Below are positions 1 through 14,453 of a DNA stretch of 22,079 bases, piece by piece (position 1 is the stretch's first letter; each line of letters begins with the position of its first letter). The translations under genes and the position numbers were made by a program. Under the pieces are notes generated by a model that saw only the letters and a program-made list of their open reading frames with translations, was not told the DNA's origin and did not search any database. Location of the stretch: the IMG/VR virus record IMGVR_UViG_3300036399_001217, positions 1 through 22,079 of that record. One strand, 5' to 3'. Source of the stretch: a virus.

Positions 1-3000
1 ACACCTGTAATAGCTGAATCACAAATAGCTGTAAATGTATCAAATGAAAATACAACATTTCCTGCCTATTCCGGAGGAAATGTATTTGGTGGATTTTTAG
101 CAAGTAGTGGTTCTATTTCGGTAAAAGTGGGTAGTGAAGATATCGCATATGCATCTACGATTGCAAACAATAGATTTAGTGCAAGTATATCATCTTCTAC
201 AAATGTAACCGGAGTATTAACAAATAACAATTATTCAATTACCGCATTATCAGCTGATAGTGGTAGTTTGAATTTGAAAGTAACATATAGAGATGGTAGA
301 GGTAGTGATAGTACATTTACAAAATTAGTAACTTATTCGAAAGCAAAGGCTGGTGCACCTAATGTATTAGTAGCTGTATCCCCTTCGGCACAATCAATTG
401 CTGCAAATTCAAGAACAAGTGGTTCAGCCACCCCAGCTTCAGTAACTGTAACTGCATTAGAAGCTGGTACAAGCAGATTTACATCAATAGGAACTCCTGT
501 TTACACCAATGGATTAGCAGGTGATGTTTCATCTAATACAATAACATTTACATCCACCGCATCATCCATAGCAGGTTCTACTGCACAGGTAACAATACCT
601 GTAAACTATACGGATAGTGAGGGAGTTACGGGAACAAAAAATGTTGTAGCTACTGTTTCCAAAGCATTAGCATCCGCACCATCGACTATTGTTTCTATTG
701 AAAAAGATGGACAAACTATTACGAGAAGTAAAACTGGAACATATGGTACTCCATCTTCATTCAGAATAAATGTTTTAGAAGGGGCAAACTCATCATCTTA
801 TGATAATACTGAGCCATTTGCGTCGTCCACTTTTAGAATTACAAATGTAACAAATGGTACATTAAACGCTACCGATTTAGATAAATATGCAACAATAACA
901 CCATCTACACCATCATCCACTTCGGGATTAGTTGTAAGTATTACGGGGTCATATGTAGATTCTGAAGGAAGTACTACTACATTTTTAAAAACACATAATG
1001 TAAATGTTGCAACCGATGGAAGTGATGGTGCTACGGGTGCATCTGGACCTGGTATTGTTTTTAGAGGTCCTTGGAGTTCTACAATAACTTATTTTGATAC
1101 CGATGATTCCCCTGGCCGTAGAGATGCGGTATTATATAGTGGAACTTATTATGCAACAAAAACAAATGCAACCACAAACTTAAATAAACAACCAAATATT
1201 GAAACTACATTTTGGGAATCATTGGGAACTGATAGTTTCTTTGTAGCAGCTAAAATTATCATATCTGAAAATTCATTTGTACAAGAAACTTTAAATGTAG
1301 GTACAAATTCTTCCGGTAATGCAAATATAACATTAAGAGGTGGTACTGATAAACCATATATTTCAATAGCACAAGCAGTACAAGAATTTGGTACAAATGG
1401 AATTTATTTAGGTATAACCGGTTCAGTTGGCAATGCAGTTGTTAGTTTCCAAAGTGGTAGTAATTATTTCAAATATAATTCATCTGCAGCTGGTACTATT
1501 ACTGACCCCGTAATTAGTGTTGGTGGAAATATAGCAGCAACTTATATAACAGCAACTTCGGGAGCAATTGGTGGTTTTACAATTGGAAGTAATACAATGA
1601 CTGCCGGTAATTTATTATTAGATGCAGGTAATAATAGAATTTTAATTGGTAGTAATAATAATTTAGTTGCAATGAGTCCAACTGATGGATTTTATGCCGG
1701 AAGCGCGACTCCTACATTGGCTAATTTTAGAGTAAAAACTGATGGTATTATGACCGCAGTTGGAGCTAGTATAACAGGTACAATCACCGCCACCGGTGGT
1801 AACATTGGAGGTTGGGAAATTGGAGATGGTAGAATATTTAAAAGTAAAATTGAATTAAAAGCTACTTCTACGCAAGAATATATAAATGTCCAAGGTTCAA
1901 CCGAAGCTGGTTCAGCGGGTAACTATGTTAGAATTACACCAGATAGTTTGTCTAGTTTAACATTATCGGGAGCAGGAGATGGGGTCGCATCTACTGCCGC
2001 AGGTACTTCATTTACTAATTTAGGTACGGGTACTACATTAACCACATATTATGTTGGTAATAGTGGAGCAAGTACAACTTTAAGTACAGATGCTGGAAGT
2101 GTTAGTAATAGTACTAATAATGGAGCCGCTTATACTGGCACTGTATCTGTAAGATATAAATTAGCAGCTACATTTTCAGCTCAAAAACCTATTATGGGTG
2201 AAGGGAGTATTTTTGATAGGCCGACATTCCCATCTGCCCAAGCCGCGTATCAGGCATCTCAAGATAATCTAATTGGAATTAGTCCAACTATAAATGGAGC
2301 TAAACTACAATGGAATCAAGCGGTAAATGGAGTATTAGGGTATAATGATTCCGAATATTTCGTATTGAATGCAGTGGAGGGTACTCAAGTGACTGTTGCG
2401 ATAGTATATGGAGATTATAACGGTACAGAAACAATTTCATCTACTTTATATTATAATAATACAGCAATTGGTACTAATACTAAAACTTTAACTCTTACAG
2501 GAGCAAACACTGAAGTAAGTGAAATTGTTAGTATGGCGGGTTCATTTACTCAAGTAAATGGTGCAGACTTTAAAGTTACTTCAACAAGAACAAATGGAGG
2601 TTTTAATATATATAGGATAGCTATAACATGGGAATTAGGAAAATGGTTCGAACCTGATTTTAATAAACCATTTTATAGTTGGTTTCCAGCAGAAGATACG
2701 GGTGGATTTGAATTTGCATCTGAAACAACAGCATATGTAGCACCTACTGCATTAGCTGCAGGTTCATTGAGTAGATTCTTAGAAATTACACCATCTGGAT
2801 TACAAGCTGTATTTAATTCCGCAAAAAATTACTTTAGAGTGGATTATGTTGGTGGAAACGACCCATCTACTTCAAATTTTAATATAAATTCAGCAGGATA
2901 TTGGAAACATACTGGAGAAATGCATTCAACTGGTGATATCATAGGCTTTACAACCGCAGGTGCATCAGATGAAAGATTAAAAGATACTATTGAAAATATA

Positions 3001-3258
3001 ACTGAAGAGGATTATTTGAAATTGAAAGAATTAGTTCCTGTAACTTATTCTTGGAAAAGTGATAATGAAAAAGAAAAACATTATGGCTTAATAGCTCAGC
3101 AAGTCGATAAGGTATTTCCAGAATTAACTCGTAAGAAATTATTTGGAGAATATATGACGATTAATTATATTGGATTAATACCTATATTAGTTGGTATGAT
3201 ACAAAAGCAAAATAGTAGAATATCAGAATTAGAAAGAAGATTAAATAGTTCCAAATAA
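1..3258 (+). CDS. Tail fibre / receptor-binding protein with C-terminal S74 chaperone (5'-partial)
   Basis: The frame is open from base 1, so the start lies upstream; the GTG at 127 is only an internal codon. The visible 1085 residues begin with three Ig-like beta repeats, each containing a Y-x-D segment (Tyr codons at 286, 607 and 952, so units of about 107-115 residues). A short collagen-like stretch (GSDGATGASGPG, residues ~341-352) and a small carbohydrate-binding-like segment with spaced W/Y residues (~354-405) follow. The middle carries IGGF/IGGW repeats typical of phage fibre shafts. Residues ~989-1085 form an intramolecular chaperone (peptidase S74): SDERLK places the catalytic Ser at 989 and Lys at 994, then YGLIAQQV, then a short coiled coil at the end. 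In this family the chaperone trimerises the fibre and cuts itself off before the Ser. The protein is therefore probably a trimeric, self-maturing host-recognition fibre. Confidence 0.85.
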   Translation, partial: TPVIAESQIAVNVSNENTTFPAYSGGNVFGGFLASSGSISVKVGSEDIAYASTIANNRFSASISSSTNVTGVLTNNNYSITALSADSGSLNLKVTYRDGRGSDSTFTKLVTYSKAKAGAPNVLVAVSPSAQSIAANSRTSGSATPASVTVTALEAGTSRFTSIGTPVYTNGLAGDVSSNTITFTSTASSIAGSTAQVTIPVNYTDSEGVTGTKNVVATVSKALASAPSTIVSIEKDGQTITRSKTGTYGTPSSFRINVLEGANSSSYDNTEPFASSTFRITNVTNGTLNATDLDKYATITPSTPSSTSGLVVSITGSYVDSEGSTTTFLKTHNVNVATDGSDGATGASGPGIVFRGPWSSTITYFDTDDSPGRRDAVLYSGTYYATKTNATTNLNKQPNIETTFWESLGTDSFFVAAKIIISENSFVQETLNVGTNSSGNANITLRGGTDKPYISIAQAVQEFGTNGIYLGITGSVGNAVVSFQSGSNYFKYNSSAAGTITDPVISVGGNIAATYITATSGAIGGFTIGSNTMTAGNLLLDAGNNRILIGSNNNLVAMSPTDGFYAGSATPTLANFRVKTDGIMTAVGASITGTITATGGNIGGWEIGDGRIFKSKIELKATSTQEYINVQGSTEAGSAGNYVRITPDSLSSLTLSGAGDGVASTAAGTSFTNLGTGTTLTTYYVGNSGASTTLSTDAGSVSNSTNNGAAYTGTVSVRYKLAATFSAQKPIMGEGSIFDRPTFPSAQAAYQASQDNLIGISPTINGAKLQWNQAVNGVLGYNDSEYFVLNAVEGTQVTVAIVYGDYNGTETISSTLYYNNTAIGTNTKTLTLTGANTEVSEIVSMAGSFTQVNGADFKVTSTRTNGGFNIYRIAITWELGKWFEPDFNKPFYSWFPAEDTGGFEFASETTAYVAPTALAAGSLSRFLEITPSGLQAVFNSAKNYFRVDYVGGNDPSTSNFNINSAGYWKHTGEMHSTGDIIGFTTAGASDERLKDTIENITEEDYLKLKELVPVTYSWKSDNEKEKHYGLIAQQVDKVFPELTRKKLFGEYMTINYIGLIPILVGMIQKQNSRISELERRLNSSK

Positions 3259-6200
3259 TGGCTTCAAACATTAAATTAAAAAATTTAGCCAGAAGTGCAG
3301 GTAAAACAGTTGATGCAAGTGGAAATCCAATAGCAGCAGCTTCCGGTTCTGATATGGCTAATATTTTTTTAACAGGCGATGTAAATCAAACTGTTTATAG
3401 ACATGTTCCTGATACCATTGGTTCTATTAGTGGAACAAGCCCAAGACCAATTGGAGACCAATATCAATTTTACGAATTCGATGGTGTGGTTCCTGGCATT
3501 GCTTTTACATCAATAAGTACTATATCAGATAATACCAATGTAAATATAGGTAGACAGATAACTTTTACATTTACTACAACTGGGGTGATATCTACAAATT
3601 ATAATGTTAAATTATATGGATATGATGCTAATCAACAAAATGAAGTTCTTTTAGACACTTATGGTGGGTATGGTGACAATGTAACAAATGAATCAAAAAC
3701 ATTTACGGGAACATTATTTCCAAATCAAATAAATTTCTTTAAATTATTATTAACAACCACAAGCGGACCTACTAGATTTGGAGAAGATATTACATCAATT
3801 TATATCTATCCAATAGATTTAACAATATCATCGGTAGTAACATCGCCAATATTTACAGGCGCAGGTACTCACAACTACACAACAGGTTCAGTTGGATTTA
3901 CTGTTAATGTTAATGGCGGAGTTCCTCCATATTATTATAATTTTAATGGAGCAGGATTTGGAGTTGCCGATGCAAATACTGCTACTTTTAATAATTCTAC
4001 AACTACTACGGATGATGCATATGATATTGTAGTTAAAGATTCACATACACCAACATTTGATACAGCTACAACTAGAGCAACAACATTCAGACCTCCAATT
4101 AGAGTTTCTTCTATTTCTACAAATTCTTCACCAGAACCATATGTTGATTATACAATAACACCAACTATTGCAAATAATACGGATGGCCTTCCATTAGTGT
4201 ATGCATGGGCTTTAGATGGTACTACACCTTCTACGAGTACCACATCGGCTCCTACTGTATTTTATACATCGTTAGGTGCAAAAACACACAGAGTTGATAT
4301 AACTAATTCTACGAATAGTAGTATACGACATAATAATACTACGGCAGTTACCGTAGCTATGATAGCACCTGGATTTACATCCGTTGAATATACTCCAAGT
4401 AGTGAAACTTTTTCTATATCATTAAATGTATCATCATTAGGAACTGCTAGAAGTGGTACTACAAGAAAGTTTGATATAGAATATAGAGTAAAAGATAGTG
4501 GAGGTACTTATGGTAGTTGGACATCTATAACATCAGATAGTACATCAACATCTACTTCTGTATCTATTAGTGGAAAAACAAATACTACACAAGTTGTACA
4601 AGCTAAAGCTAGAACACGAAGAACTAATGGTATAACTGAATTTATTTCTTCCTATGCTGAATCAACTGAAGTAACTATTCCACAAAAGGGAATAGTAAAT
4701 ATGAATAACCAAACCAGTTTATTAACAGGTGGAGATAGAAGTTTTGATGGTAGTGTTACAATTGGTGGAGTGGCTGATACGGGGTATAATACACCAACAA
4801 TAACAGCAGTTACTACGGATGGTACTGTTACCGCTAGTATTAGTAAACCATCTTCTAATATCGTTAGAGTAGTTGTTAATAATCCATGTACAAGTGTAAA
4901 TGATGGAACTGCTAGCCATGTTATATCTTTAAAAGATGGTAATGGTTATAATCTAACTAAATCTTTTACAACTCAATATAAGATAAATACTACATCAATA
5001 AATTTAACTACTACTTGGGGAAATGAAAGATATTATAATGGAGCCGCAAATGCAATCGCAAATAGCTTAGCACAATACTCATTTACATTAAATTCATTTG
5101 CTTATAAAGTTGGAGCTGGTTCATATAGTACACTAAATAGTGGAAATATGTCAAGTAGTTATTCACATACTTATACTGCACCCACTTCAGACCAGACTTG
5201 GACTTATAGAATTGTTGCTAGTGGGGGAACATATACGACATCGGATACAGCAGAAACTTCTTTGACCGTATATGGATATCCTGGACAATCTTATGGTTAT
5301 TCGGTTGCAGGTGTTCCATCATCTGGTACATTATCTCAAGTGGGTAGTGTTGTAGCAAGAGTAAGTAGAAGTAGTGGTAATTTCGCAAAAATATCAGTAG
5401 ATAGTTATTATGTAACTAGACCTACGGGAACAAATGTATCACCTGCTGGTAAATCGGAAGCAAGTATCACCGATTCAGCAACTAGCTTTGATTCAGCTAC
5501 ATTTTCATTATACGATTCGGCAGAATGTGGTAATAATGTAACGGGTATAGCAACTTTAATGGCTTATTTAAAATATGAAATCGATGCATCGAGATATTAT
5601 TTACATCAACTAATATCTTCAGGTGTATCTGTTTTAAATGAACCACCAAGCCTAACCTCTACATTAATTAGTGGTATTACAAGTGATTATGCAATTAGAG
5701 GAAATATTATAACACACGAGATTTCATATTCTTCATATGGTCCTCCAATAGCAGGTTATTACGATTTTAATGGTACATTTTATGATAATTCTGCGTACGC
5801 ATATCTTTCTCAAAATACAAATCCATCGAGTTTTTCAGGTATAACAGTCAATGATGAAAATTCACCAGAGTCACCTTCAATTGGATATTACCGAATAGCT
5901 ACCGATGGGACATTTTGTAGAAAGACTAGAAATTTATCATTTGAATACACACCAACTTCAGGCCAGGTAGGTACTAATATAACATTAAATTATTATGCGA
6001 GAGAATACCAAATAGATGAAATAGAAATTGATGAAGGTGATGGAAGAGGTGGAAGTCTTTTTACTTATTTATATGATTATTATTTTGATGGAAGTGAAGC
6101 AACTTTAACTTCTACAAAAACATATAGCGTTAGAGGAAGAAGATTAGGTACTAGTGGTAATTCTTGGAGTATTACAATTTATGTAAACAAAGGATATAGT

Positions 6201-8180
6201 GATTTACAATTTGGATTGGGTAGTGGTACATTAACAGGACCAGATGGAGCTATTGATTATTACAATGGAAATTTAGATGCTTTAACATATGTTTATCAAA
6301 GATATAATGGAAGTAGTTGGGTAGATATCGCTGGTTCATCTTACGATCCAGGTACATTCGGAACTACTTTAGTTAGAGTTAAATTTACAGATACATGGGG
6401 TAATACATTTGAATCAGCTCAGCAAAGTGCAACTACTTCGGATTTAGATTATACATTTAATGTAACTAATGAAGGCGGCCAGCCTACTGTATATGCTTAT
6501 GTTGGTTCTGGTCAATCTAGTGCACCTGTTATATTAACTCCAGGATTTACCAATAACAGAGCCATATGGTCAACTGGAACAAATATCAGTATTGATAATA
6601 TGACTGTAAATGATTATGTTATAGTATATGAACATAATGTATCAGGTATGGATGAGAGAGGAACATATTCTAATTTTCCAGGTGCATATACTACCATAGG
6701 TGTATCTGTTACAGCAGGTAGTACTCCCACATATGGAATGTTTAGAACATTTACTTATACACTTAGTACTAATCAACAAGTAATAGCAACTAGAGATTAT
6801 AGTGGAAGTCCTTATGCAAACGCAACTGGCACAGATATATTAGGTATTAAATCATTTCAAATGTTTAATTCTGGAGATAGTTCAGGAAACGCTACTTTAT
6901 TTGGTACAGGTGGTATTAGTGGTAACTTTAGATTGATGGCATTACTAAGAGCACCATCAGTATATGATGCAACTGCTACATATACATTACATGGACAAAA
7001 AGCTTCAAACAATACACAGCAAGGTACAGACTATTATGTAGTGTTAAAGACAAGGGGTGTTCAAAATGTTGTTAATATATTAACTCAAACGGGTTTGTGT
7101 GGAGGAATATATGTTGAATATAGAACAGGCCAGCTTGATACTGCCACTACTTTAGAAATACAAGAAAGTACGGATAATTCAACATTTACTAATAATGCTG
7201 TATATTCAAGCATCGCATCTAATACTACATATAATGCATTTATAACCGTAACAGGTAATGCTATACGCTATTATAGAGCAAGATTGTTAAATAGTAGTGG
7301 TGGTGTAATATCTACTGGAACAACTTATTCATACACAAACTATGCAGCTGGAGCAGCTGGAAATTATAGTTTTTTAAATATACCAGGAGTTTGTACTTCG
7401 TTTACATATAGAGTCGATAGACCTTCTGGTGGTAATTCTAATAATAATGCATATTTTGCTATTTCGTGGGCAACTGCTGATGAATATGGAACTGTTGGTG
7501 CAGAAATCACATCAGCTACTGGCAAAGCATATAATACGAATCATGTACAAAGTCTTTCTGGATTCCCATGCGATACACCAATACAAGTTACTATAACACC
7601 ATATTCTGCAACAGGATGCGATGGAACATCTGATACTAGTTTTGAAACTTCACATAAATCAGATGCGATAAATGAATTTTGTGGATGTGCGGGTGGTGGC
7701 GGATGTTTGGTATATGGTACTAAAGTTTTAATGTATGATGGTTCTTTAAAAAATGTTGAAGATTTGATTATAGGAGATATTGTTAAAAGTATAGCAATAA
7801 GTGGATTAAATCCTAATATAGAATTAAATTGGATAGATTGGTTAACAAATGATTTTCAATATGAAGATGGTTTATCAATAATAATGAGTATTGATGATAA
7901 TTCATTCTCTCAATATTATGTATTTAATAATTTATTGAAGGCAACATATGAGCATCCTATATTTATAAAAAGAGATAATGTGTGTATGTTTCAAATGGCT
8001 GAAAATTTGGTAATAGGTGATTATTTTTTTAATTCTAATAATGAATTTGAAATTATTTCATCAATTGATATAATAGATGAACCAATTCAAACAATTAATA
8101 TTAATATTGAAGAAAATGATGTCTACTTTGCAGATGGAATTTTAGTACATAACGCAGCACGACCAAAAGACGAAGCTTAA
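3258..8180 (+). CDS. Giant beta-sandwich fibre/adhesin with C-terminal Hint self-processing domain
   Basis: The start overlaps the previous stop (TAATG), suggesting translational coupling. The 1640-residue product is rich in Ser, Thr, Gly and Asn and consists of successive beta-sandwich-like segments. Residues ~370-475 resemble a fibronectin type III domain, and ~190-275 resemble a PKD/Ig-like repeat. No signal peptide is visible. Near the end a Cys-rich, Gly-rich linker (FCGCAGGGGC) leads into a Hint domain, residues 1483-1632: Cys1483 starts block A (CLVYGTKVLMYDGS), T1563-x-x-H1566 forms block B (TYEHP), and the domain closes with VYFADGILVHN. Only eight residues follow (AARPKDEA). The domain lacks a homing endonuclease. 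Hint domains activate the peptide bond before the Cys, leading to cleavage, splicing or attachment to another nucleophile. The +1 residue is Ala, so ordinary intein splicing is unlikely; a bacterial-intein-like (BIL) cleavage or ligation role fits better. The exact fibre role is inferred from position and composition. Confidence 0.8.
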   Translation: MASNIKLKNLARSAGKTVDASGNPIAAASGSDMANIFLTGDVNQTVYRHVPDTIGSISGTSPRPIGDQYQFYEFDGVVPGIAFTSISTISDNTNVNIGRQITFTFTTTGVISTNYNVKLYGYDANQQNEVLLDTYGGYGDNVTNESKTFTGTLFPNQINFFKLLLTTTSGPTRFGEDITSIYIYPIDLTISSVVTSPIFTGAGTHNYTTGSVGFTVNVNGGVPPYYYNFNGAGFGVADANTATFNNSTTTTDDAYDIVVKDSHTPTFDTATTRATTFRPPIRVSSISTNSSPEPYVDYTITPTIANNTDGLPLVYAWALDGTTPSTSTTSAPTVFYTSLGAKTHRVDITNSTNSSIRHNNTTAVTVAMIAPGFTSVEYTPSSETFSISLNVSSLGTARSGTTRKFDIEYRVKDSGGTYGSWTSITSDSTSTSTSVSISGKTNTTQVVQAKARTRRTNGITEFISSYAESTEVTIPQKGIVNMNNQTSLLTGGDRSFDGSVTIGGVADTGYNTPTITAVTTDGTVTASISKPSSNIVRVVVNNPCTSVNDGTASHVISLKDGNGYNLTKSFTTQYKINTTSINLTTTWGNERYYNGAANAIANSLAQYSFTLNSFAYKVGAGSYSTLNSGNMSSSYSHTYTAPTSDQTWTYRIVASGGTYTTSDTAETSLTVYGYPGQSYGYSVAGVPSSGTLSQVGSVVARVSRSSGNFAKISVDSYYVTRPTGTNVSPAGKSEASITDSATSFDSATFSLYDSAECGNNVTGIATLMAYLKYEIDASRYYLHQLISSGVSVLNEPPSLTSTLISGITSDYAIRGNIITHEISYSSYGPPIAGYYDFNGTFYDNSAYAYLSQNTNPSSFSGITVNDENSPESPSIGYYRIATDGTFCRKTRNLSFEYTPTSGQVGTNITLNYYAREYQIDEIEIDEGDGRGGSLFTYLYDYYFDGSEATLTSTKTYSVRGRRLGTSGNSWSITIYVNKGYSDLQFGLGSGTLTGPDGAIDYYNGNLDALTYVYQRYNGSSWVDIAGSSYDPGTFGTTLVRVKFTDTWGNTFESAQQSATTSDLDYTFNVTNEGGQPTVYAYVGSGQSSAPVILTPGFTNNRAIWSTGTNISIDNMTVNDYVIVYEHNVSGMDERGTYSNFPGAYTTIGVSVTAGSTPTYGMFRTFTYTLSTNQQVIATRDYSGSPYANATGTDILGIKSFQMFNSGDSSGNATLFGTGGISGNFRLMALLRAPSVYDATATYTLHGQKASNNTQQGTDYYVVLKTRGVQNVVNILTQTGLCGGIYVEYRTGQLDTATTLEIQESTDNSTFTNNAVYSSIASNTTYNAFITVTGNAIRYYRARLLNSSGGVISTGTTYSYTNYAAGAAGNYSFLNIPGVCTSFTYRVDRPSGGNSNNNAYFAISWATADEYGTVGAEITSATGKAYNTNHVQSLSGFPCDTPIQVTITPYSATGCDGTSDTSFETSHKSDAINEFCGCAGGGGCLVYGTKVLMYDGSLKNVEDLIIGDIVKSIAISGLNPNIELNWIDWLTNDFQYEDGLSIIMSIDDNSFSQYYVFNNLLKATYEHPIFIKRDNVCMFQMAENLVIGDYFFNSNNEFEIISSIDIIDEPIQTININIEENDVYFADGILVHNAARPKDEA

Positions 8181-8181
8181 A

Positions 8182-8625
8182 ATGGATATTACAAATATAC
8201 TTAGCTATAATAATTTAAGAATTTCTATATTAGATATAGCTTCTAATAATTCTATTAGTGGTTGGTCTTTAAATAAAAAGAAATATACTACTGAAAAAAT
8301 TATATCATGTACTCCAACTAAAGTAGATACATACTATATTGTAAACGGAATAAGATTTCATATAAATGCAGAAGTTTTAATTAAAGTAGATGGTGAAATA
8401 AAAAATATGTTTCTTAAAAATTTATACGAAGATTTTGTAAATAATAAAGTTGTATCAATTTTAAATTACAAATTAGAAGATGTATTAATTACCGATTTTA
8501 TATTTGAAGAAAGAGCTAGTGTTAGAAATAGATGTATGTTTTTAAGTGTAAATGTATATGGAAATACTATTTATCTACCATATTCAGAATATTCCATACT
8601 TATAAGAGGAGCATTATTTGTATAA
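8182..8625 (+). CDS. Hypothetical protein, possibly a catalytically dead Hint-like domain
   Basis: This 147-residue protein starts one base after the Hint-fibre stop. I do not recognise it as a named family. Read against the upstream Hint domain it shows a similar run of elements: NLRISILDIASNNSISGWSLN resembles the segment around GSLKNVEDLIIGDIV; TYYIVNG then VLIKVDGEIKNMFLKNL resembles QYYVFNN then IFIKRDNVCMFQMAENL; and the end (TIYLPYSEYSILIRGA) matches the pattern of DVYFADGILVHNA. The catalytic Cys, the TxxH and the terminal HN are all missing. It may be an inactive Hint paralogue that binds or regulates the fibre's Hint domain, or a separated, decayed domain. The similarity was judged by eye and is weak. 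Its DNA is very AT-rich (9 G+C of 60 in bases 8401-8460). Confidence 0.6.
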   Translation: MDITNILSYNNLRISILDIASNNSISGWSLNKKKYTTEKIISCTPTKVDTYYIVNGIRFHINAEVLIKVDGEIKNMFLKNLYEDFVNNKVVSILNYKLEDVLITDFIFEERASVRNRCMFLSVNVYGNTIYLPYSEYSILIRGALFV

Positions 8626-8640
8626 GTTATTTAAATTGTT

Positions 8641-10050
8641 ATGGTACATAAATTGGGAATATGCATTCCATATAGGGATAGAGAAACTCATTTAAAAACT
8701 CTAATTCCACATCTTACAAAGTTTCTTAATAAAAAAGATATTAAGCATTCTTTTTATATAGCACATCAAATTGATGATAAGTTATTTAATAGAGGGGCAA
8801 TGAAAAATATTGCCGCTAAACATGCATTTGAAGATGGGTGTGATTATGTAGCATTTCACGATGTAGATATGTTACCTGAAAATGAAAATTGTGATTATTC
8901 ATATCCTATCGATTATCCAACCCATATTGCAACAAAACTTTCTAAATACAAATACAAATTGAATTATGAGCAGTACTTTGGTGGGGTTGTATTATTTACA
9001 AAAGAGCAAGTAGAAAAAACCAATGGTTACTCAAATGATTATTGGGATTGGGGTATGGAAGATGATGATTTGTTTTGGAGATGTGTATATGAAGATATGA
9101 CAAATTGTGTAATATTTTCAAAATATACAAATAAAAAATATTTTGCTTTTAATGGGGATGGTTCATATATCCATATAAGGAAAGAATTGGGGTTACATTC
9201 GATTTTATCTAATTCTCACACTATTTCTATATTATGTAGTATAGATAATCAACCGGATAAATATAATCATTGGTTGGTAGGGGATGAAGCAAAATCATTT
9301 ATAGAATATCCTATTTTTAGAAGTAATAACAAAAATGGTTATGGAATTGGATTTAACAATTCTAGAGCAATATGTTCTTCTATTAGAAATTCCAATAATA
9401 ACTTTAATTATGGATGGATTAAGCGAAACTTTAATGAGTGGACTTGGGTAACCATATCAGTTGATACCAATTCTAATAATATATATTTTTATTGTAATAA
9501 CAAACTTATAAAAAATACAACCAATGGTACATTAGAAGAAAGTTATTCTAATTATGAAGGTACATTACAAAAAATAGATTCTGACTTTTATATAGGTAAA
9601 AATTCAGATAATATTACTGATATGATTGCTCCTTTTCTAAAAGGCAAAGTTGCAGAAATTAAAGTGTGGAATAAATTTTTTAAAAAAGAAGAAATTGAAG
9701 ATATTATATTAAAAAATAAAGAAACTCCATATTTTGAATTAACAAATGATAATAAAAAATTACATTACAACAATATAGTGGAAGAAAGTGCAACATTTGA
9801 TGTAATTAATAATATAATACCACATCGAAGAGAAGGGAGATTTCTCTCATTACCCCATACCGATGAAGGGTTTGTTGGTGGTAAATGGGCAAAAGGAGAA
9901 ACTACTGCACGAAATGAAAAAAGATTTTTCTTAGAAATGAAAGCAAAAAAACTAAATTACAAAGATGATGGTATAGCTCAAATTAAGTATGATTTGGTAT
10001 CAAAAGAGCAAATAGCAGACAATGCTTGGATGATAAATATAAAACTTTAA
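8641..10050 (+). CDS. GT7-family galactosyltransferase with inserted laminin-G-like domain
   Basis: Residues ~3-155 carry the beta-1,4-galactosyltransferase (GT7) signature: CIPYRDRETHL, FNRGAMKN (49-56), the metal-binding DVD (74-76), FGG (113-115) and WDWGMEDDD (135-143). Such enzymes transfer galactose or a related sugar from a UDP-sugar. The expected C-terminal part of the fold appears only at ~399-469: GRFLSLPHTDE, ARNEKR, then DDGIAQIKYDL and a final beta strand. Between them, residues ~165-375 look like a laminin-G/concanavalin-like jellyroll (GYGIGFNNSRA, NEWTWVTISVD, FYIGKNSD, KGKVAEIKVWN). The jellyroll therefore seems to be inserted inside the enzyme. The gene sits directly after the fibre genes, so it may glycosylate the fibres or alter host surface glycans, with the jellyroll binding the acceptor. 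Donor and acceptor cannot be read from the sequence. Confidence 0.85.
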   Translation: MVHKLGICIPYRDRETHLKTLIPHLTKFLNKKDIKHSFYIAHQIDDKLFNRGAMKNIAAKHAFEDGCDYVAFHDVDMLPENENCDYSYPIDYPTHIATKLSKYKYKLNYEQYFGGVVLFTKEQVEKTNGYSNDYWDWGMEDDDLFWRCVYEDMTNCVIFSKYTNKKYFAFNGDGSYIHIRKELGLHSILSNSHTISILCSIDNQPDKYNHWLVGDEAKSFIEYPIFRSNNKNGYGIGFNNSRAICSSIRNSNNNFNYGWIKRNFNEWTWVTISVDTNSNNIYFYCNNKLIKNTTNGTLEESYSNYEGTLQKIDSDFYIGKNSDNITDMIAPFLKGKVAEIKVWNKFFKKEEIEDIILKNKETPYFELTNDNKKLHYNNIVEESATFDVINNIIPHRREGRFLSLPHTDEGFVGGKWAKGETTARNEKRFFLEMKAKKLNYKDDGIAQIKYDLVSKEQIADNAWMINIKL

Positions 10051-10136: not shown

Positions 10137-13100
10137 ATGAATATAAAAGAAATAGATAAACCTGAAATTAAAAAAGTAGTAGTAGTTTACGCTGGTAGAT
10201 TTCAACCCTTCCATAAGGGACACTATGCTACTTATCAGAAATTAGTTTCTAAGTTTGGCGCAAATAATGTTTACATTGGAACTTCTAATGATACATCAGG
10301 TCCTAAATCCCCATTTGATTTTAATGAAAAGAAAACTATAATGAATAAAATGTTTGGTATTTCTCCAAACAAAATAGTTCAAGTTCGTAATCCATATGCA
10401 CCTAAAGAAGTTTTAAGTGGTATGGATGGAAAGACTACTGCATATGTTGCGGCAGTTGGTGAAAAAGATGCAACTAGATTAGCAGGTAAATATTTTAAAC
10501 CATACAAAGGTAAAGCTGGATATGGTTATGATGAAATTGGTTATGTATATCCGGTGCCGGCAGAAGATAACGCTATAAGTGGAACTGATGTTCGTAATTG
10601 GTTAAGTAAAGGCGATGATAAAGCTAAACAAAAAGGATTTACGAAAGCATATCCAAAATTTGATAAAGATATATTCAATATGATAACAGGTAAATTAAAT
10701 GAAGAACTATACAAAGGTTACCCTTCAAAAGAACAAGTAAAAGATATAGAAAGGAAAAATAAAGAATTTAGAAATTCAGCTGATTCAACTTCAGATGATG
10801 AATATCTTTATGACCCAATAGCTGAAATATTAGGTAGAGTTGCAGCAGAAGATATATTTGAAGAATTTGTTAAATCATATTTTAAAGAAGAAACTGAAGC
10901 TGAAAAAATGGGATTAACCCATTTAGGTGGTGGTTATTATGGAAAAGAAGGACAACCTGCATCACATAAATCAGATAATGGTAAGATTCGTACATTAACT
11001 CCTCAAGAGGTTGATGCTGTTAAGAAAAAATCAATGGCTAAAGGTCCTTCAGATGCTCCCGTTAATGAACCCAAGCCATCTCAGCCAGGTCAACCTGTTA
11101 ACAAAGGGGCAACGGCTCAAGGTAAAGTTGATAAAGCAAAAGAAGAACCTACTGATAAAAAAACAGGTGGCGAAAAGCCAGGAGAACAAGCTCCTCCACC
11201 TGAACAAAAATTAAGTGGAGCAGAATTGAAATCCTCCGCAGAAATGAGTGATAAAGATAAAGGCGAACAAAAAGTTAAAGAAACCTTAGATAAGGCTAAA
11301 AAAGATTTATCAAAAGAAGATAATGAATCAATTGATAAAGTAAATAACCCTCAATCACAGGAAAGAAAGGGAGCTATTGGTGTACTAAAAAAAGCAGCAT
11401 CATATATAGGACATGGCATTATGCATACATTGGAGCATAATAAAGAAATGATGGTTGGAACTGGTAGAGCTATAAAATCATTAGCAACTACCGGAAAAAT
11501 GGGAAGTATTAAAGATAAAGATGGTAATAATGTTCATTGGGATAGATACACCGAAGTAGGTGAAAAAGATTTTTTTGGAAATGAGCAACCAAAGATGAAA
11601 GAAGTTCCTGTTTATAAAACAGATAGTCATGGACATGCTATTAAAGATAAAGATGGGAACAAAATACAAGATACAAATTTATTAGGAAAATTAAAAACAA
11701 AAAAAGAACCTGTATATAGAGAAGGATTATCAGCAGAAGAAAAAGAATTAGCAGAAAAGTCTTGGAAAGAGAGTCAAAGACAAAAAAATGGTGTTAAAAC
11801 TCTTGCAAAAACCACTGCATTAATTATGGGTTCAATTGCAGTTACGGGTGGTTTAATGGGTGGTGGAGCAGCTGCTATGAAAGGAGCTGGTGCTAGTGGT
11901 ATCTTAAAAGGTGCCGGAGCAAAAATAGCAGCTAAATTTGGCGGAGGCCATTTGGGTTCATATGTAATGAAAGATATTATAAAACACTCTGCGGCAGAAG
12001 CCTTAGGAGCTAATGCAATTCAAGCATCTGGCGTAGGTATTGCATTAGGAGCTGCTGGTATATTTGAAAATAAAGATGGCGAAGAGGGGTTTGATACTAA
12101 AAAATTCGTACCAAACTTTATGGAAAAAACATTAGAAATAATGCAAAACTATAAACTTTCAGATGAGCAATTAATAGAAACACTTAATCAGTATAAAAAA
12201 GAAGGAACTAAAAATCAATCTATGGCTAACGCTTCAGATTTGATGAAAGAAGATATTTCAGAATCAAAGCAACAATCTATTCAACATTTTGTAGAATTTG
12301 CAACTAAACGATTAAAATTAAAAGAAACACCAAATATTACATTAGTTGGTGGTAGAGAATTTGCTGAAGTAAAAACATCATTGGGTGGATATAATCCAGA
12401 TGATAAATCAATATATGTAGCAACCGAAGGTAGATTAACTGCTGATATTTTAAGAACACTTGCACATGAAATGGCTCATAGAAAGCAAGATGAGATGGGA
12501 TTAGTTACAAATGCAGAAACCGATGGCGCAGATGGTTCTCCAATAGAAAATAAAGCACATGCAGTAGCTGGAATCCTAATGAGAGAGTATGGTAGAATCA
12601 ACAAACAAATCTATAATGAAGATATTAATGTAGATGTTGATAAGGGTGATACTGTTTTAATGGGTAAGTTTAAAAATAAAAAAACTACCGTTAAAGATAT
12701 TGGAACTGATGACCATGGGATGCCAACAATTAATGGTAAGAAAGCAACTACATTCAGAATTCCAAGAGGAGAAGAAGAAAAATCAAATCCACAATCAGTA
12801 TTTAATGAAGTAGGCCCAAATGATTGGCACTTCAAAGCAATTATGAAAATGTGGGATACTGCTAATTCATTTAGTAGAAAAAAGATTGGAGTAGTGGTAT
12901 GTAATAATCCTAAAGCTGATAGAAATGATGTAGCTAGAACATTAAGAAACTACGGATATAAAGAAGTAACCCATGTTACCGATAAGTTGGGATTGGAAGA
13001 AAAAAAAAACCTAAATGAATTAACACAAGGTTTATTCGCAGGTAAGGTTAAAATAGGTGGACAACCGGTTGAAATTGAAGTAGAATTATTAGGAGCAGAT

Positions 13101-14453
13101 AATAAAACAAAAGAATTCATAACAAAAATAATTCACATTGATAAGAAATATCAAAGTAAATTACCTATTGGTTCGGAATTTAAAATACCAGCAAGAATAT
13201 TCAGAATGCCAGGCGGTGGTTGGCATAAAATCAAATCATCTGCATTTAAAGAATCCCTAAACGAAGGTGGAGCATACGGACACATGTCACATCCATTTGA
13301 TGATATGGATTTAACTTTTGGTGATTTGAAAAAGATTATCAAAGGAGCATTGACAGGTAATTTAGAATTGACAAGAGAAAAAACCGATGGACAAGCCCTA
13401 GCAATAAGTTGGAAGAATGGTAGATTAATTGCCGCAAGAAACAAATCACATTTACAAAACGCCGGAGTAGGGGCAATGGGTATTGAAGATGTAGCATCAA
13501 AGTTTGGTGGAAGAGGTGGATTAACCGATGCTTACAACTTTGCTATGAGAGATTTAACTGCGGCAATTAGTGGATTATCTGAAGCACAAAGAAAAAAGAT
13601 ATTTGATGAAGGCAAGTGTTTTATGAATTTGGAAGTAATATGGCCAACTTCGGTAAATGTAATTCCTTATGGACAGGCTTTATTAGTATTCCATAACACA
13701 ACTTGTTATGATGAAAAAGGTTCTGCGATTGGTGCAAATCAGGGAGCAGCAACTATGTTAGCAGGAATGATTAAGCAAGTGAACGCTGATGTTCAATCAA
13801 AGTATACAATACAAGGTCCACCTGTAACAGAACTACCTAAAAAAGAGGAGTTAAGTTCAAAACAAACAAAGTACCTTACTCAATTGCAAAAGATACAATT
13901 TCAGTTCCAATTATCCGATAAAGATGGTGTATCTGAATATCATCAAGCTTGGTGGGAAGATTTTGTAAATAAATCAAAAGTTAAATTACAAAAATTAGAA
14001 AAGGAAGCATTAGTAAGAAGATGGGCATTTGGTGATAAATCATTCCGTTTAAATACTATTGCTGATAAAGATGCTCAAAGTTGGGCAATCGAAAATGATA
14101 AAGTAAATGTAGCTAAACAACAAAAAGATAATGTTAGACAATTTGAAGAAATATTTTTGGGTGTTGGGGCAGATGTTCTTTCATTTATGGGTTCAGTATT
14201 AACTGTAAATCCAGATGCAGCTGTTCGTAATATGAAAGATAGATTAAAATCAACTGCTGAAAAAGTAAGAGGTAGTGGTGATGTATCTAAAATAGCTAAA
14301 TTAAAAATGGAATTAAGTAGATTAGCTAGTATTGGTGGTAAAGATAAAATAGTACCAAACGAAGGTATTGTATTTGTTTATAAAGGTAATACATATAAAC
14401 TAACAGGTACATTCGCACCACTAAATCAGATATTAGGTATATTTTACGAATAA
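10137..14453 (+). CDS. Multi-enzyme polyprotein: HxGH nucleotidyltransferase, zincin and ligase-like domain
   Basis: The 1438-residue product has several recognisable parts. Residues ~11-190 are a cytidylyltransferase/NMN-adenylyltransferase-like Rossmann domain, with GRFQPFHKGH (20-29) and ISGTDVR (147-153). A short phage module (THLGGGYYGKEG, 261-272) precedes a charged Pro/Lys/Glu linker (~300-410). A Gly/Ala-rich hydrophobic stretch (~555-645) could insert in or cross a membrane. Residues ~710-830 are a zincin with HEMAH (777-781) and a possible third ligand in IENKAHA (803-809). A domain of unknown function (~835-1035) follows. The C-terminus (~1045-1438) resembles an ATP-dependent ligase/nucleotidyltransferase: KTDG (1082-1085, motif I), LEVI (~1165), EGIVF (1409-1413, motif IV) and Lys1421 (motif V). 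The late-region position suggests a virion or injected protein, much as T4 Alt is injected. Substrates are unknown. The ligase call is motif-based and less certain than the first two. Confidence 0.8.
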   Translation: MNIKEIDKPEIKKVVVVYAGRFQPFHKGHYATYQKLVSKFGANNVYIGTSNDTSGPKSPFDFNEKKTIMNKMFGISPNKIVQVRNPYAPKEVLSGMDGKTTAYVAAVGEKDATRLAGKYFKPYKGKAGYGYDEIGYVYPVPAEDNAISGTDVRNWLSKGDDKAKQKGFTKAYPKFDKDIFNMITGKLNEELYKGYPSKEQVKDIERKNKEFRNSADSTSDDEYLYDPIAEILGRVAAEDIFEEFVKSYFKEETEAEKMGLTHLGGGYYGKEGQPASHKSDNGKIRTLTPQEVDAVKKKSMAKGPSDAPVNEPKPSQPGQPVNKGATAQGKVDKAKEEPTDKKTGGEKPGEQAPPPEQKLSGAELKSSAEMSDKDKGEQKVKETLDKAKKDLSKEDNESIDKVNNPQSQERKGAIGVLKKAASYIGHGIMHTLEHNKEMMVGTGRAIKSLATTGKMGSIKDKDGNNVHWDRYTEVGEKDFFGNEQPKMKEVPVYKTDSHGHAIKDKDGNKIQDTNLLGKLKTKKEPVYREGLSAEEKELAEKSWKESQRQKNGVKTLAKTTALIMGSIAVTGGLMGGGAAAMKGAGASGILKGAGAKIAAKFGGGHLGSYVMKDIIKHSAAEALGANAIQASGVGIALGAAGIFENKDGEEGFDTKKFVPNFMEKTLEIMQNYKLSDEQLIETLNQYKKEGTKNQSMANASDLMKEDISESKQQSIQHFVEFATKRLKLKETPNITLVGGREFAEVKTSLGGYNPDDKSIYVATEGRLTADILRTLAHEMAHRKQDEMGLVTNAETDGADGSPIENKAHAVAGILMREYGRINKQIYNEDINVDVDKGDTVLMGKFKNKKTTVKDIGTDDHGMPTINGKKATTFRIPRGEEEKSNPQSVFNEVGPNDWHFKAIMKMWDTANSFSRKKIGVVVCNNPKADRNDVARTLRNYGYKEVTHVTDKLGLEEKKNLNELTQGLFAGKVKIGGQPVEIEVELLGADNKTKEFITKIIHIDKKYQSKLPIGSEFKIPARIFRMPGGGWHKIKSSAFKESLNEGGAYGHMSHPFDDMDLTFGDLKKIIKGALTGNLELTREKTDGQALAISWKNGRLIAARNKSHLQNAGVGAMGIEDVASKFGGRGGLTDAYNFAMRDLTAAISGLSEAQRKKIFDEGKCFMNLEVIWPTSVNVIPYGQALLVFHNTTCYDEKGSAIGANQGAATMLAGMIKQVNADVQSKYTIQGPPVTELPKKEELSSKQTKYLTQLQKIQFQFQLSDKDGVSEYHQAWWEDFVNKSKVKLQKLEKEALVRRWAFGDKSFRLNTIADKDAQSWAIENDKVNVAKQQKDNVRQFEEIFLGVGADVLSFMGSVLTVNPDAAVRNMKDRLKSTAEKVRGSGDVSKIAKLKMELSRLASIGGKDKIVPNEGIVFVYKGNTYKLTGTFAPLNQILGIFYE

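Follow-up and report, generated by a model that had tools for sequence, protein, structure and literature searches.

The window analyzed here, a stretch of 22,079 nucleotides, is a 22-kb IMG/VR fragment from an uncultured T4-like phage, whose terminase is ~53% identical to that of Flavobacterium phage immuto and 52% identical to that of Microcystis phage Mel-JY01 and whose portal protein is of the T4 type. The features relevant to our analysis are the following:

127..3258, plus strand: upstream tail fiber gene with an S74 chaperone, its 5' end cut by the window (Peptidase_S74, E=8.7e-15; PHROG tail fiber matches)
3258..8180, plus strand: predicted fiber gene with a C-terminal Hint domain, 1640 aa, from the list of open reading frames and the translation; relatives 61-73% identical over their full length in contigs L008 and L012
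7680..7703, plus strand: linker CGCAGGGG, residues 1475-1482, CxC and then a Gly run with Gly at -1, read from the sequence
7704..8153, plus strand: Hint domain, residues 1483-1632, from Pfam PT-HINT, profile matches to BIL and intein chains in the PDB, and AlphaFold2/Foldseek
7704..7706, plus strand: Cys1 (C1483), predicted nucleophile of an N-S acyl shift, present in 37 distinct active-class Hints, all of which retain the other catalytic residues
7944..7955, plus strand: block B TxxH (T1563-Y-E-H1566), from sequence and alignments
8148..8153, plus strand: terminal His-Asn (H1631-N1632), from sequence and alignments
8154..8177, plus strand: C-terminal tail AARPKDEA (+1 to +8) with Lys at +5, followed by the stop codon, read from the sequence
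8182..8625, plus strand: companion gene, 147 aa, probably a divergent Hint-like protein without Cys1, TxxH or HN, from hhalign to the Hint profile and an L008 ortholog found with that profile
8641..10050, plus strand: gene for a glycosyltransferase family 7 (GT7) and LamG-like protein, from Pfam; syntenic in L006-L012

The gene order (S74-chaperone fiber, Hint fiber, companion, GT7-LamG protein and a giant cytidylyltransferase-like protein) is conserved in the relatives as far as their contigs reach, with the exception of the fiber and companion of L010. The gene for the GT7-LamG-like lectin, directly 3' of the Hint fiber and companion, is kept in all relatives including L010, and its product could be a modifier of the fiber. 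The giant ORF (10137-14453, 1438 aa) begins like a cytidylyltransferase (GRFQPFHKGH) and contains, by eye, a HEMAH motif resembling that of metallopeptidases; near their terminase, immuto and Mel-JY01 have genes whose annotations read NMN adenylyltransferase and cytidylyltransferase-like protein. The 1640-aa protein itself appears to be a fiber, as suggested by its length, its beta-rich composition, the adjacent S74 fiber gene and a weak decoration-protein/Ig-like match at residues 212-281 (E=0.004; PHROG 4069, E=0.012). Its 1482-aa N-terminal part gave no match among 50,697 phage records and no Pfam match at E<=1, whether to a ubiquitin-like donor module or to another family.

The gene product, whose end reads CGCAGGGG-C1483...TYEH...VHN1632-AARPKDEA-stop, terminates in a true Hint domain (residues 1483-1632), beyond chance and not as an artifact. 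The best Pfam family for this domain is PT-HINT (PF07591; E=2.9e-6); the isolated domain passes the curated cut-off of that family, and within the whole ORF it stays below it (24.6 vs 27.7 bits). It also matches PHROG 38766 (E=5e-9), and a profile of 12 phage relatives reaches the C. thermocellum BIL (PDB 2lwy) at E=2.6e-12, together with other Hint chains. An AlphaFold2 model, based on an alignment of 14 sequences, has a pLDDT of 90.9 and a pTM of 0.87 and finds 59 PDB matches at E<=0.001 with Foldseek, all 50 among the matches listed being BILs, inteins or hedgehog proteins. The top match is the BIL2 domain of Tetrahymena BUBL1 (6y75; E=3.5e-9, TM 0.72/0.76), followed by the C. thermocellum BIL (2lwy; 2e-8), gp41-1 and other inteins, and hedgehog. 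The Hint profile has no match in immuto or Mel-JY01, and no match to the window Hint was found in plasmids.

The first-pass annotation, made from the letters alone, had proposed a BIL-type Hint domain at the end of the fiber, whose catalytic set is intact and which lacks a classical +1 nucleophile, and both the profile searches and the structure prediction that it suggested bear this out. Its further proposal, that the fiber tip is attached to an amine of the host surface or the virion, is one possible outcome among several. Cys1483, T1563/H1566 and H1631-N1632 lie where it placed them in the translation, the GGGG linker stands directly before Cys1483, and Ala at +1 is followed by only seven residues, making a tail of eight. 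It overlooked the companion Hint-like gene, the recurrence of the domain on unrelated fibers and the variety at +1 among relatives.

To place the domain among its relatives, we drew on three scans of viral contigs (the third with a wider alignment), one genome scan and phage records; the profile alignment of all loci comprises 68 different domain sequences, including a few enzyme inteins. Hint modules sit on at least eight groups of N-domains without mutual BLASTP similarity. In most of these groups the residue before Cys1 is Gly, the exceptions being Thr in L024, Leu in L019-type proteins and L090, Ser in L053 and Val in the second Hint of the L027 phage, and Gly runs precede Cys1 on at least four unrelated N-domains. 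In L010, a 71-aa protein with a G11 run replaces the long fiber exactly at the Gly linker; the Hint is kept (71% identical) and the flanks are the same as in the window (GT7 68% identical, structural genes 63-86% identical). Judged from these alignments, L010 is a natural swap at the Gly-Cys junction. The CxC that precedes the Gly linker in the window (7680-7703) is retained, with a Gly-rich run, in L008, L011 and L012; it might switch the Hint in response to redox state or a metal.

Downstream of His-Asn, the close relatives, whose Hints are 69-76% identical to that of the window, have Ala, Phe or Leu at +1 and tails of 5-8 residues (FAQPKDQA, AAPTK, LAEKPE and LLEPK), so that the absence of a +1 nucleophile is typical of window-type Hints. 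Distant Hints (24-33% identity) have Ala, Thr or Ile at this position, with Thr in Erwinia-type and L018 fibers, and Pro, Lys and Ile occupy it in L024, L019-type proteins and L090, respectively. Thus, the Ala at +1 that the first-pass annotation singled out is indeed present but not special as such, since relatives have Phe, Leu, Thr, Ile, Pro or Lys in its place. Across the fiber-end class, tails comprise 3-15 aa.

Hint domains were also seen in other contexts. Two consecutive collagen-like fibers in L032 (2474-5962 and 5986-10929) start with a Cys1-less Hint that ends in HN-T or HN-V, and because Cys1 is missing, only C-terminal cleavage would be possible there. The Hint lies mid-protein in L019-L031 (L024 and L027 being different), with HN followed by K-GGNSH or K-GANSH and ~100 further residues. 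A prophage-like locus of Pontibacter aydingkolensis (L066:4713-5501) combines a 98-aa N-domain with a Hint, and L024, an IMG/VR contig matching it, has an S74-like fiber gene just upstream. One phage carries two Hint proteins (L027:3388-6486 and L114:617-4534) with the tails IPGGGVVVKK and IPGGGSQVKR; long Ser/Thr/Trp-rich repeats (TSWTTSWT...) occur in the L114 Hint protein and in the gene 3' of each of the L027/L114 Hint genes.

The residues expected to carry the chemistry are conserved as a set. In an alignment of 12 relatives of 24-76% identity, C1, T81, H84, H149 and N150 all fall within the 12 invariant columns, out of ~158. In the profile-alignment set, T, H, H and N are kept in 37/37 distinct Cys1-bearing Hints, a number that leaves out the second Hint of L053 (misaligned by the profile, reading TFDH by eye) and the enzyme inteins L013-L017, whereas 26/26 Cys1-less Hints are altered or unaligned in at least one of the positions T81, H84 and N150, the copies in both counts being phylogenetically non-independent. 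Among the Cys1-less sequences, SxxH is found with HD in (PFGFT)n fibers, and VxxY or VxxQ in the companions of NCTB and L018. The search patterns of the two alignment scans avoided Cys1, TxxH and HN. Since the catalytic set is whole where Cys1 is present and broken where it is absent, this pattern argues for selection on catalysis. Rough Nei-Gojobori estimates of dN/dS for the closest relatives are 0.17-0.37 for the Hint, 0.32-0.33 for the adjoining part of the fiber and 0.38-0.51 for the companion. Both classes can occur side by side: in the L090 phage, a PFGFT-repeat protein ends in an active Hint and another protein, ~3 kb away, carries a dead one, and in L053 (4459-6456) a Cys1-less Hint is joined through a Cys-rich linker to a Cys1-bearing Hint within a single chain.

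The gene directly following the Hint fiber probably encodes a divergent, dead Hint. In hhalign comparisons, the companion matches the Hint-family profile at E=3.6e-5, in a 48-column stretch surrounding block B, and 0/200 column shuffles reached its score (best 20.5 vs 35.1). The same profile finds the companion ortholog of L008 at E=3e-5 within its contig and at 6.8e-4 among 4260 ORFs. By eye, the companion end ILIRG-A aligns with ILVHN-A and INAE with TxxH, and Cys1 is absent. The AlphaFold2 model is poor (pLDDT 42), and its Foldseek matches include several inteins, all at E>1. The companion was found in L006-L009, L011 and L012 and not in the sequence of L010; because L010 keeps the Hint without the long fiber or the companion, the latter seems to be linked to the long fiber rather than required by the Hint. 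No match to it was found among phage records. Clear stand-alone Cys1-less Hints lie directly 3' of a Hint fiber in two other cases, NCTB_135 (E=6e-19) and the L018 gene (E=5e-20). The comparisons do not establish descent of the window and NCTB/L018 companion sets from one ancestral gene: the companion gives weak BLASTP similarity to NCTB_135, as it does to the window Hint, and hhalign between the window companions and those of NCTB and L018 yielded nothing convincing. As far as could be found in the literature searched, such a pair of an active and a dead Hint has not been described.

What might the fiber-end Hint do? It has Cys1, TxxH and a terminal His-Asn, with no Cys/Ser/Thr at +1, the residue pattern of A-type BILs. 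These domains, which combine a C-terminal His-Asn with the lack of a +1 nucleophile, give mostly cleavage products and can also splice, the freed amine attacking the N-terminal thioester by aminolysis (PMC4031507). On balance, we lean towards an A-type-BIL-like Hint module, catalytically competent by its residues, that would process itself at the end of the fiber. In the first step, with help from the TxxH block, C1483 would attack the carbonyl of G1482 (N-S acyl shift), producing a fiber-GGGG thioester. Without a nucleophilic side chain at +1, this thioester would be resolved chiefly through attack by water or by a thiol; the Hint would be shed, leaving a mature fiber that ends in ...GGGG. 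Cyclization of N1632 would free the 8-residue tail, to which, if A-type BILs are a guide, part of the product might be re-ligated. In this scheme the Hint would serve as a processing module at the fiber end, as S74 does on the neighboring fiber. We infer that the reaction takes place, that cleavage would be its dominant outcome and that it may serve fiber maturation. The differences in tail sequence between lineages are consistent with a piece that is discarded.

Alternatively, the GGGG thioester could be captured by an amine, either of the tail lysine K1637 or of a lysine or other amine on another virion protein, a glycan or the host surface, to give an isopeptide-linked fiber. Covalent transfer has a real precedent, because the closest fold, BIL2 of T. 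thermophila (E=3.5e-9), forms isopeptide bonds with the epsilon-amino group of Lys without ATP and under the control of zinc (PMC8616854). Moreover, the glycines preceding Cys look like a Gly-Gly donor, and a tail Lys is present in 7/8 independent active lineages. However, any A-type-like BIL would be expected to match BIL2, and the candidate acceptors are hypothetical. The excess of tail Lys over control C-termini is marginal (P ~0.05), and the tail lysine was for this reason rejected as a proven acceptor. On this evidence, capture by an amine seems unlikely to be the main role of the domain.

About equally doubtful is the idea that the Hint caps the fiber tip in a structural or a binding role, its chemistry being vestigial or occasional and the companion a related binding protein or fiber chaperone. 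A Hint fold can have a non-catalytic role in fibers: in many phages (L092-L113, e.g. L092:4215-5516), fibers built of PFGFT or PFFPP repeats carry at their end a Hint that lacks Cys1 and has SxxH, and HD instead of HN. The persistence of such dead fiber-end Hints counts against self-trimming. The companion, too, is dead at all catalytic positions yet under purifying selection. HN might alternatively be kept for another reason, such as structure. Against a mere cap, the Cys1-bearing class keeps its catalytic set completely, whereas the other class loses its members together.

It is tempting to speculate that these elements combine into a fiber tip that conjugates itself in the style of ubiquitin-like proteins, passing a poly-Gly thioester to an amine of the tail lysine, a virion protein or the host surface, with the dead Hint paralog next door holding or timing the reaction; we give this scenario even less credence. 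A degenerate or ordinary intein, that is, a mobile element inserted near the gene end that has lost splicing, is highly improbable in spite of the shared fold and the intein-like TxxH and HN, given the lack of a homing endonuclease, the unconserved insertion site (unrelated N-domains, fiber-end tails of 3-15 aa) and the absence of Cys/Ser/Thr at +1 in window-type relatives. An ordinary class 1 intein was rejected specifically on account of Ala1633 at +1, the 8-aa tail in place of a real C-extein and the missing fixed insertion site. A frameshift fusion of the Hint to the next gene was likewise discarded, as the gaps between the fiber stop and that gene vary among relatives (+1, +2, +3, -1), and with frames that differ in this way, no split C-extein can be reached by frameshifting.

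Protein splicing domains are usually viewed as selfish inteins or as processors of toxins and hedgehog proteins. Hint domains at fiber ends have been noticed before, through the GenBank annotation of the Phage NCTB proteins BN7874_132/136/135 as intein-domain proteins; in the parts examined of the literature on enzyme intein insertions, the reviews on BIL and hedgehog domains and the work on toxin Hints, no fiber-end Hint is described, and we found no biochemical or proteomic report of cleavage for this or any other fiber Hint. The fibers are probably trimmed by their own tip, or possibly glued to something by it. If this is true, the recurrent modular fiber-end Hint would represent a new use of the domain, in fiber maturation or covalent attachment. 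Protein ligation would also gain a module that naturally forms a Gly-terminated thioester, and a new mode of phage adhesion is possible.

The fiber-end Hint shares features with several known systems. The C. thermocellum BIL (PDB 2lwy) likewise combines the Hint fold with Cys1, TxxH and a terminal His-Asn and lacks a +1 nucleophile. The Hog domain of hedgehog proteins is similar as a C-terminal Hint that performs an N-S acyl shift (fold match to 1at0, E=8e-6), but the window Hint has no sterol-recognition region and retains the terminal His-Asn. The hedgehog junction is Gly-Cys. Whereas classical BILs are found within variable parts of bacterial proteins (PMC7765530), the window clade occupies the extreme C-terminus of fibers, with a 5-8-residue tail and a Gly-run junction. 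BIL2 of Tetrahymena thermophila BUBL1 (6y75, 6tmm) is the best fold match, and its solved construct has Gly-Gly before residue 1, comparable to the GGGG before Cys1 in the window; the likeness rests on fold and junction, BUBL1 BIL2 having a ubiquitin-like donor, a second ubiquitin-like module after it and regulation by zinc (PMC8616854). PT-HINT domains of polymorphic toxins (PF07591), the best Pfam family, have a proposed role in autoprocessing (PMC3482391) and precede a C-terminal toxin domain, whereas the window gene stops 8 residues past HN and has no toxin domain. The Peptidase S74 fiber chaperone, present on the neighboring fiber, is a self-removed C-terminal module of phage fibers (PMC7824862); its chemistry is unrelated, making the comparison an analogy only. 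Finally, the same fiber-end Hint, 24-33% identical, is found in NCTB BN7874_132/136/135 and in virion structural proteins of Alexandravirus, on N-domains that are collagen-like or otherwise unrelated, and the companions of NCTB and L018 keep HN, unlike the window companion.
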